Of a DNA stretch of 34,026 nucleotides, positions 28,161-32,510 are shown piece after piece. The stretch comes from Sedimentisphaerales bacterium (GTDB lineage: Bacteria > Planctomycetota > Phycisphaerae > Sedimentisphaerales > Anaerohalosphaeraceae): positions 1 through 34,026 of the forward strand of contig JAFGPC010000031.1 in NCBI GenBank assembly GCA_016926155.1. Direction: 5' to 3'. The notes beneath the pieces are model-generated. The model saw nothing but the letters and a program-made list of their open reading frames with translations. It made no database searches and was not told where the DNA came from. The stretch's first letter is position 1; each line of letters begins with the position of its first letter. Both the position numbers and the translations under genes were made by a program.

Positions 28161-29084
28161 GTGCATACGTACCTGGATTGTATTCCGTGTTTTTTACGGC
28201 AAACAGTGGATGTGATCTCGACGGTGACAGACGATCCGTTGCTCCATGAGCAGGCAGTCCGCCAAGCGCTTCGGGCTACTGCCGAATTGGACTTTCAAGC
28301 GACCACTCCGGCAGCCATGGGACAGCGGATCCATCGGATGATCCGGGAATTATCAGAAAATCCGGATCCCTATCGCCTTATCAAGGATCGCAGCAATCGG
28401 ATCGCCATGACATTATTGCCGGAACTAAACCGGTGGGTATCCGACTCGCCGGAACCGTTTTCGACCGCGCTTCGCCTGGCCCTGGCGGGGAATGTGATTG
28501 ATTTCGGTGTGGATCATTATACCGATGTATCGGAACAGGCCATTCGGAAAAATTTGCGGGAGGCTATGCACGCAAATATTTCACCGGAGGCAATTCAATC
28601 CCTGCGTTCTAAAAGCCTTCAATCCAGAACCATTTTATATCTCTGCGACAATGCAGGAGAAATCGTATTCGATCGCTTACTTATCGAACAACTGGGACCG
28701 GAAAAAATAATCGCTGCTGTTCGTGGAGGTCCGATTATCAACGACGCTACTCTGGAAGATGCGCGGCAAACGGGGCTTGATAAGATTGTTCCAGTGATTT
28801 CGAATGGGTCTGATGCTCCCGGAACCATCCTGGAACAATGCAGTGATCCGTTTTGCAGGGCTTTTCATAAAGCCGATCTCGTGATCGCCAAAGGACAAGG
28901 CAACTTTGAATCACTAAGTAGTGTACAGACTCGTATCTTTTACCTGCTCAAAGCAAAATGCCCTGTGGTGGCACGACATATCGGCTGCACAATAGGACAA
29001 TATATGATTTTAGACGGCGACAAAAACAATAGGCACGTGGAGCCGCAAGGTAATGCCGCAAGAAAGGAGGTATACGATGCCTAG
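28161..29084 (+). CDS. DUF89 (ARMT1-like) metal-dependent phosphatase-family protein
   Basis: 307 residues. It opens with the CxxC typical of the prokaryotic subgroup (LDCIPCFLRQ, Cys7 and Cys10), and has GNVIDFG (110-116), LCDNAGEIVFD (161-171) with the metal-binding Asp/Asn, and AKGQGNFE (243-250). DUF89 proteins are described as damage-control phosphatases that remove harmful phosphometabolites using Mn, Co or Ni; the substrate here is unknown. The start is GTG with AAGGAA seven bases upstream. Its last eight bases overlap the start of the next gene, whose AGGAGG Shine-Dalgarno is inside this coding sequence. First gene of the accessory cluster. Confidence 0.9.
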   Translation: MHTYLDCIPCFLRQTVDVISTVTDDPLLHEQAVRQALRATAELDFQATTPAAMGQRIHRMIRELSENPDPYRLIKDRSNRIAMTLLPELNRWVSDSPEPFSTALRLALAGNVIDFGVDHYTDVSEQAIRKNLREAMHANISPEAIQSLRSKSLQSRTILYLCDNAGEIVFDRLLIEQLGPEKIIAAVRGGPIINDATLEDARQTGLDKIVPVISNGSDAPGTILEQCSDPFCRAFHKADLVIAKGQGNFESLSSVQTRIFYLLKAKCPVVARHIGCTIGQYMILDGDKNNRHVEPQGNAARKEVYDA

Positions 29085-29298
29085 AGGCGACGGCACAGGC
29101 CCGACAGGAATCGGTGGCGGTGGTGGTGGCCGAAGACGCCGCTTTGGACGAGGCGGTCGTAGCGGAGGTTCATCATCTCCCCGTAATGATGGTGTCTGTA
29201 CCTGTCCGAACTGCGGGTACAAACAACCGCACATCATGGGCAGTCCATGCAATCAGCAAAGTTGTCCACAATGTGGGATACAAATGATAAGAGAGTAA
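29077..29298 (+). CDS. Small Gly/Arg-rich protein with a C-terminal zinc ribbon (DUF5320-related N-terminus)
   Basis: 73 residues from the ATG at 29077, set by a perfect AGGAGG six bases upstream. The N-terminus MPRGDGTGPTG is the DUF5320-type opening, followed by a poly-Gly run and an Arg/Gly-rich stretch (RRRRFGRGGRSGG). The C-terminal half has cysteine pairs CTCPNCG and CPQCG with an intervening Cys (GSPCNQQ), a rubredoxin-like zinc or iron knuckle. Its role is unknown; similar small proteins recur in anaerobes beside NifX-like and DUF134 genes. It overlaps the DUF89 gene by eight bases, so the two are probably translated together. Confidence 0.8.
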   Translation: MPRGDGTGPTGIGGGGGGRRRRFGRGGRSGGSSSPRNDGVCTCPNCGYKQPHIMGSPCNQQSCPQCGIQMIRE

Positions 29299-29326: not shown

Positions 29327-29665
29327 ATGCCAGGTGGAGATCGAACAGGTCCGGCAGGAATGGGACCCATAACAGGTAGAGCGGCAGGTTTTTGTGCGGG
29401 ACACCCCGTTCCGGGGTATATGAATCCAGCACCCGGGCGAGGTTTCTGGGGCGCAGGTCGTGGCTTTGGGCGCGGACGAGGTATGGGACGCGGATGGGGA
29501 TTCCGTGGATCCGGCTGGGGCGGCTGGTATGGCCCCGGAATCGTACCGCCGGCAACATTGTCGACCGAACAGGAACTTCAGATGCTTCGACAGCAGTCTG
29601 AAAACCTGCAGCAGACCCTGAATGAAATCAACGAACGGATTTCCGAGATTCAAAATCAGAAATAA
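29327..29665 (+). CDS. DUF5320 domain protein
   Basis: 112 residues. It begins MPGGDRTGPAGMGPITGR, the hallmark of DUF5320, continues with a low-complexity Gly/Arg/Phe/Trp stretch (RGFGRGRGMGRGWGF) and ends in a predicted coiled coil (TEQELQMLRQQSENLQQ then INERISEIQ; about residues 76-112). A GGGAGGT Shine-Dalgarno lies six bases before the ATG. The function of DUF5320 is not established; it recurs with NifX-like cofactor proteins, suggesting a scaffold or carrier role. It shares its N-terminal motif with the preceding small protein, pointing to duplication. Confidence 0.85.
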   Translation: MPGGDRTGPAGMGPITGRAAGFCAGHPVPGYMNPAPGRGFWGAGRGFGRGRGMGRGWGFRGSGWGGWYGPGIVPPATLSTEQELQMLRQQSENLQQTLNEINERISEIQNQK

Positions 29666-29708: not shown

Positions 29709-29729
29709 GTCTAAATGAAGGGGTGTCTC

Positions 29730-30104
29730 ATGAAGATTGTTGTTACTGCTCGAGAGCCGGATTTGAATTCCGACGTGGATCCCCGATTTGGACGGGCCGC
29801 ATTCTTTCTCTTGGTGGACACAGAAAGCTCGCAATGGCAAGCAATAAACAATAATGCCACAAATGCTTCCAGCGGGGCCGGAATCGCAGCCGCCCAGGCA
29901 GTGATAGAAGCAGGTGCCGGGGCCGTGCTTACCGGCAATTGCGGGCCCAATGCATTCCGCACACTCCAGGCAGGAGACGTACAGGTGTACACGGACGTAG
30001 TGGGAACAGTTGAGAAAGCCGTTAAGGATTTCAATGACGGACTCCTTCAGCCGGTAAATGAAGCCAATGTGGATTCGCATTCCGGCACAGGATTACAGGG
30101 ATAA
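29730..30104 (+). CDS. NifX/NifB-like cofactor-binding protein (dinitrogenase Fe-Mo cofactor family), copy 1
   Basis: 124 residues from the ATG at 29730 (MKIVVTAREPD), preferred over one at 29715 because GGGGT precedes it. Family marks are DPRFGRA (metal-cluster region), NNATNASSGAGIAAAQ and GNCGPNAFRTL. The fold is the RNase H-like NifX/NafY domain that binds metal-sulfur cofactors or their precursors. In non-diazotrophs such proteins include the Mo/Cu orange protein of sulfate reducers. No nitrogenase genes are in the window, so a nitrogen-fixation role is not implied. It lies in the middle of the plus-strand cluster. Confidence 0.88.
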   Translation: MKIVVTAREPDLNSDVDPRFGRAAFFLLVDTESSQWQAINNNATNASSGAGIAAAQAVIEAGAGAVLTGNCGPNAFRTLQAGDVQVYTDVVGTVEKAVKDFNDGLLQPVNEANVDSHSGTGLQG

Positions 30105-30115
30105 CGAAACCTCAA

Positions 30116-30222
30116 ATGATTGCAGTCATCAACGGTAAAGGAGAAACGGGTAAGACTACAGTAGCTACAAACCTTGTGCTGTATCTTGCCCGATCCGGAA
30201 AAGATGTCTGATCGATTGCATC
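30116..30222 (+). pseudogene. Frameshifted N-terminal stub of a MinD/ParA-type P-loop ATPase
   Basis: From the ATG at 30116 the frame reads MIAVINGKGETGKTT, then VATNLVLYLARSGKDV, and hits TGA at 30209-30211. This is the first ~31 residues of a MinD/ParA ATPase, with the Walker A written GKGETGKTT instead of GKGGTGKTT. Shifting by one base after GTC restores LIDC (30211-30219 and the codon before), the next conserved strand of the family (VLLIDCD). The rest of the usual ~250 residues is missing: only about 75 bases remain before the next gene. So a one-base deletion and a large deletion have removed this gene. Clusters of this kind normally keep one or two such ATPases. Confidence 0.7.
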
Positions 30223-30294
30223 AAAAACCATACAACGGAGGCAAGCCATACTTAAGGTTTGATATAGGAAAATTATCAACAACAGGAGAATGAA

Positions 30295-30633
30295 ATGAAG
30301 ATTGCAATACCATTATATAATGGACGTTTATCGGCACATTTCGGCCATTGTCAACAGTTCGCTGTCGTCGATGCAGATCCGGAAACCAGGACCATCGGGC
30401 AGGTCGATTTGCACAATCCCCCCGCTCATGAACCGGGCGTCCTGCCGCGCTGGCTGGCCAAACTGGGTGTGGATCTGGTCATCGCAGGAGGCATGGGGCA
30501 AAGAGCACAGCAGCTTTTTTCCGCCAATGGCATTGACGTATTGACCGGTGCTCCCGACAATACCCCCGAGCAACTGGTTGAATCGTACCTAGCAGGACAA
30601 CTGGCCTGCGGACCAAATGCATGTGATCATTGA
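30295..30633 (+). CDS. NifX/NifB-like cofactor-binding protein, copy 2
   Basis: 112 residues. It has the conserved HFGHCQQF (residues ~15-22), LGVDLVIAGGMGQRAQ and a C-terminal CGPNACDH motif, typical of the shorter members that end in Cys and His. It would bind a metal-sulfur cofactor as copy 1 does, but the two are not close copies: copy 1 lacks the C-terminal Cys/His tail. ACAGGAGAATGAA before the ATG gives AGGAG at good distance. It follows the ATPase remnant and is 15 bases before the DUF134 gene. Confidence 0.9.
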   Translation: MKIAIPLYNGRLSAHFGHCQQFAVVDADPETRTIGQVDLHNPPAHEPGVLPRWLAKLGVDLVIAGGMGQRAQQLFSANGIDVLTGAPDNTPEQLVESYLAGQLACGPNACDH

Positions 30634-30648
30634 CGTATAGAATCAATA

Positions 30649-31041
30649 ATGCCCAGACCGAAACATTGCCGACGCGTAGGAATCATGCCCCAATGCGGCT
30701 TCTTTAAGCCGCAGGGTGCTCCCATGCGTTTCCTGGAACATGTGGCTTTAACGATAGATGAATTCGAAGCCGTTCGCCTGGCCGACTGGGAAGGATTGTA
30801 CCAGGCCGACGCCGCCGAACAGATGAACATCTCCCGGCAAACGTTCGGCCGTATTCTTGATTCCTCTCACAAAAAGATTGCCGATGCTCTGGTCCATGGA
30901 AAAGCGCTGCGCATCGAAGGCGGAGAATTTAAGATCTATGAACGCAACGATGGCACAGGTCCGAAAAGCCTGCCCCCACTCCCACAATCCTGTGGGCGGA
31001 GGAGACGTTTCGGCCATAGACGTGGGCAATCCCGTTCATAG
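30649..31041 (+). CDS. DUF134 (UPF0251) helix-turn-helix protein
   Basis: 130 residues. It begins [11 protein letters not shown], has the conserved FKPQGAPM and [13 protein letters not shown] segments, then a sigma-70-region-4-like helix-turn-helix ([16 protein letters not shown], around residues 54-70). The C-terminal tail is basic and Gly/Arg-rich ([15 protein letters not shown]). DUF134 proteins are probable DNA-binding regulators that travel with NifX-like genes and sometimes fuse to them. No clear Shine-Dalgarno precedes the ATG, so translation may depend on the upstream gene. It is the only regulator in the cluster, hence the candidate for the 28057-28076 palindrome. Confidence 0.9.
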
Positions 31042-31096: not shown

Positions 31097-31447
31097 ATGG
31101 AAGAGGTCCAGGACGAATTTTTTGGACGTATGAATGATCCCACCGCAGGCGCCTGGCTCACCGGTCCCTGTGGCGACACGATGGAATTCTATCTGGTCAT
31201 AGAGGACCAGCGCATTACGTATGTACGATATCATACGGACGGCTGCGAATACACCCGCCTATGCGGGCGGACTGTCTCTCGATTCATCCTGGATAAATCT
31301 CTTCAAGAAGCTCTGACAATCAGTGCCACAGATGTGCTTACCCAAGTCCCTGACCTGCCCCCGGAACATCGCCATTGCGCCATCTTGGCTATCAGCACCT
31401 TCTACAAAGCCATCGCCCAGTTCTGGCTGGAACAGGCCCGTTCCTGA
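31097..31447 (+). CDS. IscU/NifU-N-like iron-sulfur scaffold protein
   Basis: 116 residues. The three cluster-ligand cysteines of the IscU family can be placed: Cys25 in GPCGDTMEF (with the adjacent Asp27), Cys50 in TDGCEYTRLCG, and Cys94 in HRHCAILA. The usual GCxxSxAS motif of IscU is altered to GCEYTRLC, with an extra Cys56. IscU scaffolds build Fe-S clusters from a cysteine desulfurase, but no desulfurase gene is seen in the window. It is the last gene of the plus-strand cluster, 55 bases after DUF134, and converges on the AmrS gene 13 bases away. Confidence 0.85.
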   Translation: MEEVQDEFFGRMNDPTAGAWLTGPCGDTMEFYLVIEDQRITYVRYHTDGCEYTRLCGRTVSRFILDKSLQEALTISATDVLTQVPDLPPEHRHCAILAISTFYKAIAQFWLEQARS

Positions 31448-31460
31448 ATTGTACTTCCGA

Positions 31461-32510
31461 TCACAATCCAAAACCGGGAATCTCCGCATCACACTGCGGA
31501 CAGCGGCCGTCGTGGATTACATTTTTCTGAATCGTATAGCCCATCCGTTCGACAAGCAGCGTCCCGCATGAAGGACAGAATGTGCTCTCGGCCCGCGTTC
31601 CCGGTAGGTTACCGATATAAATGAACTGGAGTCCCTCTTCCTTACCGATATCGTATGCCCGTTCCAGCGTTTTCACAGGCGTCGGCGCCGTATCTTCCAT
31701 ATGGTACTGCGGATAAAATCGACTCACATGCCATGGCACACCCTGCCCGGCTTCGGTAGCGATAAAACGGGCAATCTCGCGTAGCTCCTCGTCTGAATCA
31801 TTCTGCCCCGGCACAATCAGCGTCGTCAGTTCCATCCAGATATCCGTCTTTTTCGCAATGTACCGAATCGTATCCAATACCGGCCCAAGCCGGGCGTGAC
31901 ATAGACTTTTATAATATTCCTCCCGAAACGACTTGAGATCGATATTGATCCCATCCAGCCACGGTCGTGCAAACTCGATCGCCTCGGTCGACATATACCC
32001 ATTACTCACAAACACATTGGCCAACCCTTCCTTGCGGGCCAGCCGGGCACATTCGGAAGCCAGTTCCATAAAAATCGTCGGTTCGGTATACGTATACGCG
32101 ATGCTCTTGCACTGCCCGTGAATCGCCGAAATCACTATATCCTTCGGGCGGATCGACCGGCCGTACAGGTCGCCGTCGGCCTCGGCCATCTGGCTGATCT
32201 GCCAGTTCTGACAGAAATCGCAGCGGAAATTACACCCCGGCGCCGCGATGGAAAAGCTCTTGCTGCCCGGCTGGAAATGGAACAGTGGCTTTTTCTCAAT
32301 CGGATCGACATTGGCCGCACACACCCGATGATAATTGAGAGATTGCAGCCGTCCTTTCACATTCCTTCTCACGCCGCAGCGCCCCAGCCGCCCTTTCGCG
32401 ATCACACAACGGAAGTTGCATAGAAAACACTGCACCTTGCCCCCTTCGCTGGGCCCCCACATAACCGCCTCGGCCGTCCGATTCTTCTCGATATCCATCG
32501 GTTCTTCCAT
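31461..32510 (-). CDS. amrS: AmmeMemoRadiSam system radical SAM enzyme
   Basis: 349 residues. The radical SAM cluster is CNFRCDFC (Cys93, Cys97, Cys100). An N-terminal cysteine set (CFLCNFRC, then GRCGVR; Cys28-Cys45) and a C-terminal zinc-ribbon pair (CPSCG and CPQC) flank it; the core also has TYTEPTIF and NIDLKSF. This is the AmrS partner of the three-part AmmeMemoRadiSam system with AMMECR1-like and Memo-like proteins. Neither partner is in the window. The reaction is not firmly known. The start at 32510 is taken with GGGG upstream; an ATG four codons later is possible. It is convergent with the IscU-like gene. Confidence 0.9.
   Translation of the reverse strand: MEEPMDIEKNRTAEAVMWGPSEGGKVQCFLCNFRCVIAKGRLGRCGVRRNVKGRLQSLNYHRVCAANVDPIEKKPLFHFQPGSKSFSIAAPGCNFRCDFCQNWQISQMAEADGDLYGRSIRPKDIVISAIHGQCKSIAYTYTEPTIFMELASECARLARKEGLANVFVSNGYMSTEAIEFARPWLDGINIDLKSFREEYYKSLCHARLGPVLDTIRYIAKKTDIWMELTTLIVPGQNDSDEELREIARFIATEAGQGVPWHVSRFYPQYHMEDTAPTPVKTLERAYDIGKEEGLQFIYIGNLPGTRAESTFCPSCGTLLVERMGYTIQKNVIHDGRCPQCDAEIPGFGL

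Follow-up and report, generated by a model that had tools for sequence, protein, structure and literature searches.

The closest described systems are the ORP (orange protein) gene clusters of Desulfovibrio vulgaris. In their description (PMC6345978), the operons are under sigma-54 control and several of their products resemble proteins considered here. The single-domain dinitrogenase-cofactor (Di-Nase) protein Orp8 is similar to the product of a gene we call NifX1, and the Di-Nase domain of Orp9/MrpORP is similar to that of a second gene, NifX2. Orp3 and Orp4 can be likened, by description, to the tandem ferredoxin-bearing ATPases MinD1 and MinD2 that relatives of our bacterium carry at a site where it has only a stub.

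We analysed an entire contig (C75, 34,026 bases; hereafter the window) from a genome assembly of 222 contigs and 5,015,080 bases in total, which is 95.89% complete and 1.08% contaminated. The gene order is ARMT1, zinc-ribbon, DUF5320, NifX1, stub, NifX2, DUF134 and NifU-like, followed by a convergent AmmeMemoRadiSam gene (Table 1). In contrast to the Desulfovibrio cluster, there is no ATPase pair of the Orp3/Orp4 type (only the stub is left in the window, and the pair is found on contig C187) and no sigma-54-type regulator; DUF134 is adjacent, and the ARMT1, DUF5320 and NifU-like genes are extra. NifX2, whose ATG is preceded by AGGAG, covers only one stretch of the model for the iron-sulfur carrier MrpORP, which has a cut-off of 450 bits. 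The Mrp P-loop domain is absent from the window, and the genome's own MrpORP lies on contigs C187 and C27.

Table 1. Features of the ORP-like cluster in the window
Feature	Position	Strand	Evidence
ARMT1-like damage-control phosphatase	28161..29084	+	PF01937
Small zinc-ribbon-like protein, belongs to these clusters	29053..29298	+	weak Pfam match; conserved neighbour in relatives
DUF5320 protein	29327..29665	+	profile match
NifX1, single-domain Di-Nase protein, Orp8-like	29715..30104	+	PF02579, E=1.5e-21; likely start 29730
MinD1-type ATPase remnant, 31 codons then TGA, P-loop NGKGETGKTT	30116..30211	+	PF01656
LIDC strand of the remnant, other frame than the stub, overlaps the stub's TGA	30209..30219	+	read from sequence
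NifX2, Di-Nase protein like the MrpORP C-terminal domain	30295..30633	+	NF041136 positions 265-365, 126 bits
DUF134 helix-turn-helix protein	30649..31041	+	PF02001
NifU_N-like scaffold protein	31097..31447	+	PF01592
AmmeMemoRadiSam radical SAM enzyme, convergent neighbour kept in several relatives	31461..32510	-	TIGR04337, above cut-off

An earlier note on this DNA had seen a broken MinD/ParA-type ATPase gene between NifX1 and NifX2, and such a gene is indeed there, with its LIDC strand out of frame and the rest missing. The stub begins with the ATG at 30116 and its frame is closed by the TGA at 30209-30211. Residues 2-31 align with positions 1-30 of the PF01656 (CbiA/MinD/ParA family) profile (E=1.2e-8; score 35.4 bits, curated cut-off 25.4). 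When the whole genome was searched in six frames, the stub came up again, with the TGA inside the match, as one of 17 PF01656 matches (E=5.2e-7). These two E-values place the similarity well beyond chance. Both the profile and the best MinD1 match put the N-terminal P-loop NTPase sequence in the stub. Its best relative is the MinD1 N-terminus of locus L116, with 70% identity over 30 residues. MinD2 and Mrp were tried as parents and scored below MinD1; in this comparison one row labelled Mrp is really the MinD1 stub of genome G029. By its sequence, then, the stub is the 5' remnant of MinD1, the leading member of a tandem pair of ferredoxin-bearing MinD-type ATPase genes in ORP-like clusters of Planctomycetota. 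It amounts to the first ninth of such a gene. The remaining 250 or so codons are gone, and with them both 4Fe-4S motifs and the remainder of the NTPase fold.

What is left has also changed. The P-loop was first read as intact, and this holds for the generic pattern GxxxxGK[ST]. The MinD signature SGKGG[TV]GK, on the other hand, is lost, the stub having NGKGETGK. SGKGG occurs in all 223 P-loops read in relatives (70 MinD1, 91 MinD2 and 62 Mrp rows, where a place that occurs in two loci counts as two and 23 further ORFs showed no P-loop), against NGKGE in the stub. The frame break had been described as a one-base deletion. The distance from the valine to the DC of the LIDC strand is three codons in most MinD1 relatives and five bases in the stub, so that there is certainly a net break of the frame, but not certainly one of a given size; one base is only one reading. 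Past LIDC, local alignment of the tail against 63 MinD1 segments found no MinD1 similarity: the best score was equalled by 248 of 300 shuffles and by 153 of 216 other pieces of the window. This gave no support to a MinD1 gene continuing beyond LIDC with small insertions or deletions. A scan for promoters and terminators, a repeat search and inspection of the ORFs around locus L151 revealed nothing bearing on the stub.

The same site was compared in 113 loci from genomes of the same family or wider: the window, two loci of its own genome, 30 stretches from 22 relatives, and the best 80 of 496 further confirmed loci. Loci were picked by NifX2 similarity and the sample is therefore non-random. 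ORFs near NifX2 were classed with profiles built from these loci's own proteins. There were 109 places with NifX2, 104 of them distinct, and the main count leaves out 18 distinct places with less than 3 kb of upstream sequence, giving 86. At 80 of these 86 an ATPase ORF lies on the same strand no more than 4 kb upstream, and at 84 the locus contains an ATPase at some position. The two without any are the window and L091 (G014:C35). Among the places with less than 3 kb upstream, L100, L109 and L122 show no ATPase in the available sequence. If the count is limited to distinct sites where DUF134 follows NifX2 and 3 kb or more of upstream sequence is available, ATPase genes are upstream at 13 of 14, the window being the sole exception. 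The order at the site in relatives is NifX1-MinD1-MinD2-(Mrp)-NifX2-DUF134. The full-length gene looked for at this place is present in relatives (for example in G006, G049 and G050), and the early picture of a single ATPase finds no support, two or three being usual at this site in relatives.

The relative whose gene order comes nearest to that of the window is G006 (locus L103), with DUF5320-NifX1-MinD1-MinD2-NifX2-DUF134 and the convergent radical SAM gene. It shares with the window this order, this neighbour and a stand-alone NifX2. It differs in that both ATPases are intact and its gap between NifX1 and NifX2 is 1831 bases against 190 in the window; furthermore, no NifU-like gene was recognised between its DUF134 and radical SAM genes, where the window has one. 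In G049 and G050 the order is ARMT1-DUF5320-NifX1-MinD1-MinD2-MrpORP-DUF134, with a J-like gene between the MinD genes of G050. The window's NifX2 clusters with those of G029, G049, G050 and G006 (tree support 0.95), and its NifX1 with those of G006, G049 and G050 (0.94). All four genomes have open MinD1 and MinD2 genes. NifX2 is fused to Mrp in three of them and unfused in G006. The AmmeMemoRadiSam gene recurs convergent to the NifX2-DUF134 end in the window and in L103, L121, L123, L124, L127, L138 and L146.

The following scenario would account for these observations. The difference between gaps of 190 and 1831 bases, together with the ATPase genes at 13 of 14 sites, indicates that MinD1 has been lost for the most part, MinD2 entirely and an Mrp domain perhaps as well. 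They would have been taken by a deletion of some 1.6 kb or more, which would have joined the start of MinD1 to the region just before NifX2. Whether it also took the Mrp half of an MrpORP fusion we leave as a possibility, since NifX2 is fused in three of the four nearest relatives and unfused in G006. Small changes, namely the frame break and the P-loop substitutions, would have built up in the remnant later. The ATPase gene would then be dead and the stub itself most likely functionless, while NifX1, NifX2, DUF134 and the NifU-like protein would still be in use. ATP-dependent loading or maturation of metal-sulfur clusters would most likely be provided in trans by MinD1 and MinD2 of C187 and by MrpORP of C187/C27. 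We consider this account as a whole highly probable.

Ferredoxin-bearing MinD-type ATPases are indeed present elsewhere in the genome. Three of the 17 genome-wide PF01656 matches are on C187, which has a complete MinD1 (C187:2700-3551) and a complete MinD2 (C187:602-1501), both with 4Fe-4S ferredoxin motifs. Of the other matches, those whose proteins were inspected look to us like ParA-type, FlhG-like, BioD-like and SRP-type proteins. MrpORP is split by contig ends, the Mrp half being at C187:1-407 (L018, minus strand) and the Di-Nase half at C27:2-574 (L037). We infer that these are halves of one gene, with about 80 positions of the MrpORP model unassembled between them. The C187 cluster is adjoined by a PAS/sigma-54 regulator, an arrangement similar to that of the ORP operons in Desulfovibrio with their sigma-54 control (PMC6345978). 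Two short contigs, C129 (L035) and C153 (L036), hold partial clusters with a sigma-54 regulator, two NifX genes, ARMT1 and DUF5320; their regulator and NifX proteins share 65-91% identity with the C187 counterparts. The earlier note had left three options, namely that the system works without an ATPase, uses one elsewhere, or is decaying. With complete MinD1 and MinD2 genes on C187 and a split MrpORP in the same genome, the second is favoured: judging by the genes present, supply in trans is the likeliest. NifX2 occurs in 18 of 39 genomes of the family, and all 18 have a full-length MinD1. The same holds for each of the five examined genomes whose loci are unusual (G014, G043, G029 and the genomes containing L122 and L151). 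The presence of MinD1 in all these genomes fits supply in trans without proving it.

The gap appears to reflect an ordinary loss of genes from one of several copies of an ORP-like gene set, and as such indicates no new ATPase-free design. A natural deletion of this kind makes a question testable: do the MinD ATPases of ORP-type operons serve the Di-Nase proteins of their own operon only, or those of another operon too? One can also suggest that the Di-Nase proteins, DUF134 and the NifU-like scaffold form an ATPase-free ORP-type module, a stand-alone carrier loaded by the ATPases of a second locus. We put this forward tentatively, as possible and somewhat unlikely. If correct, repeated independent ATPase loss would mark a general split in which one set of ATPases works for several Di-Nase operons.

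Another suggestion is that the whole cluster of the window is dying, the ATPases having gone first and the C187 cluster having taken over. There are redundant clusters in the genome, and the stub region is A+T-rich, with G+C dropping to 40% at 30100-30299 compared to 54-57% on both sides. The terminal branches are long: NifX2 ranks 94th of 104 in length, NifX1 24th of 28 and DUF134 24th of 28. Long branches could mean relaxed selection; a lone genus also yields them. Against general decay, the NifX1, NifX2, DUF134, NifU-like, DUF5320 and ARMT1 genes are all open, and of the columns at least 95% conserved the window keeps 36 of 36 in NifX2, 15 of 15 in NifX1 and 27 of 28 in DUF134. The idea of decay in the remainder of the cluster, raised at the start, runs against the conserved residues of these three proteins, and we consider it rather improbable.

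The gap could also be an artefact, the true genome having a whole MinD1 and MinD2 here that were dropped or mis-joined by the assembler. The genome is a draft in many contigs and short of completeness, and the paralogous clusters on C187, C129 and C153 could confuse an assembler. A chimera with the genome's other MinD1 is nevertheless contradicted by the DNA, as only 46 of 75 nucleotides (61%) are identical. No other piece of MinD1 was found in the genome, and the long genes of the same contig, which we take from their sequences to be rpoB, rpoC, fusA and tuf, are single open frames. Together these three observations make misassembly unlikely. Moreover, three distinct lesions can be told apart: the frame break, the two signature substitutions and the missing portion. 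We would give such an artefact very little credence.

Finally, the 31-residue peptide might serve as a small protein in its own right, or as a leader translated between NifX1 and NifX2: its frame is open and starts with ATG, and G029 too has a MinD1 stub after NifX1. This is scarcely credible, given that no clear ribosome site precedes 30116, that the G029 stub breaks at another point and continues into the 3' half of a gene for aspartate decarboxylase, which makes it a separate scar and not a conserved peptide, and that among 318 redundant hits (locus-end copies aside) closure before 200 codons is confined to the window, G029 and one frame in L195. What looked like short MinD1 pieces in L168, L152 and L192 turned out to be ferredoxin-like ORFs of their own that lack the MinD N-terminus; in view of these and of the G029 stub, we reject a recurrent conserved mini-protein.

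If the window's stub is a deletion scar, as we prefer to think, it is not the only irregular site of this type. In G029 (L111:5670-5922), the aspartate decarboxylase 3' half (PF02261, E=5.1e-13) is entered out of frame, and a complete set of genes lies downstream. At L122:111-1980 a DDE/IS4-type transposase gene stands directly before what, read by eye, is the last part of an Mrp domain joined to NifX2, and apparently interrupts an MrpORP-like gene. At L151:3136-3978, in a member of the Phycisphaerales (UBA2218), a MinD1 that lacks the ferredoxin part forms an in-frame fusion with NifX2, and no MinD2 was recognised at this locus. It may represent a new fusion of P-loop and Di-Nase domains or one more copy in decay. 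From these three cases it follows that ATPase loss or rearrangement has happened at such loci more than once, with complete copies elsewhere. Orphan NifX2 genes without an ATPase were also seen at L091:968-1306 (7.7 kb of upstream sequence seen) and L100:5092-5430 (1.7 kb seen), in genomes that have complete clusters elsewhere.
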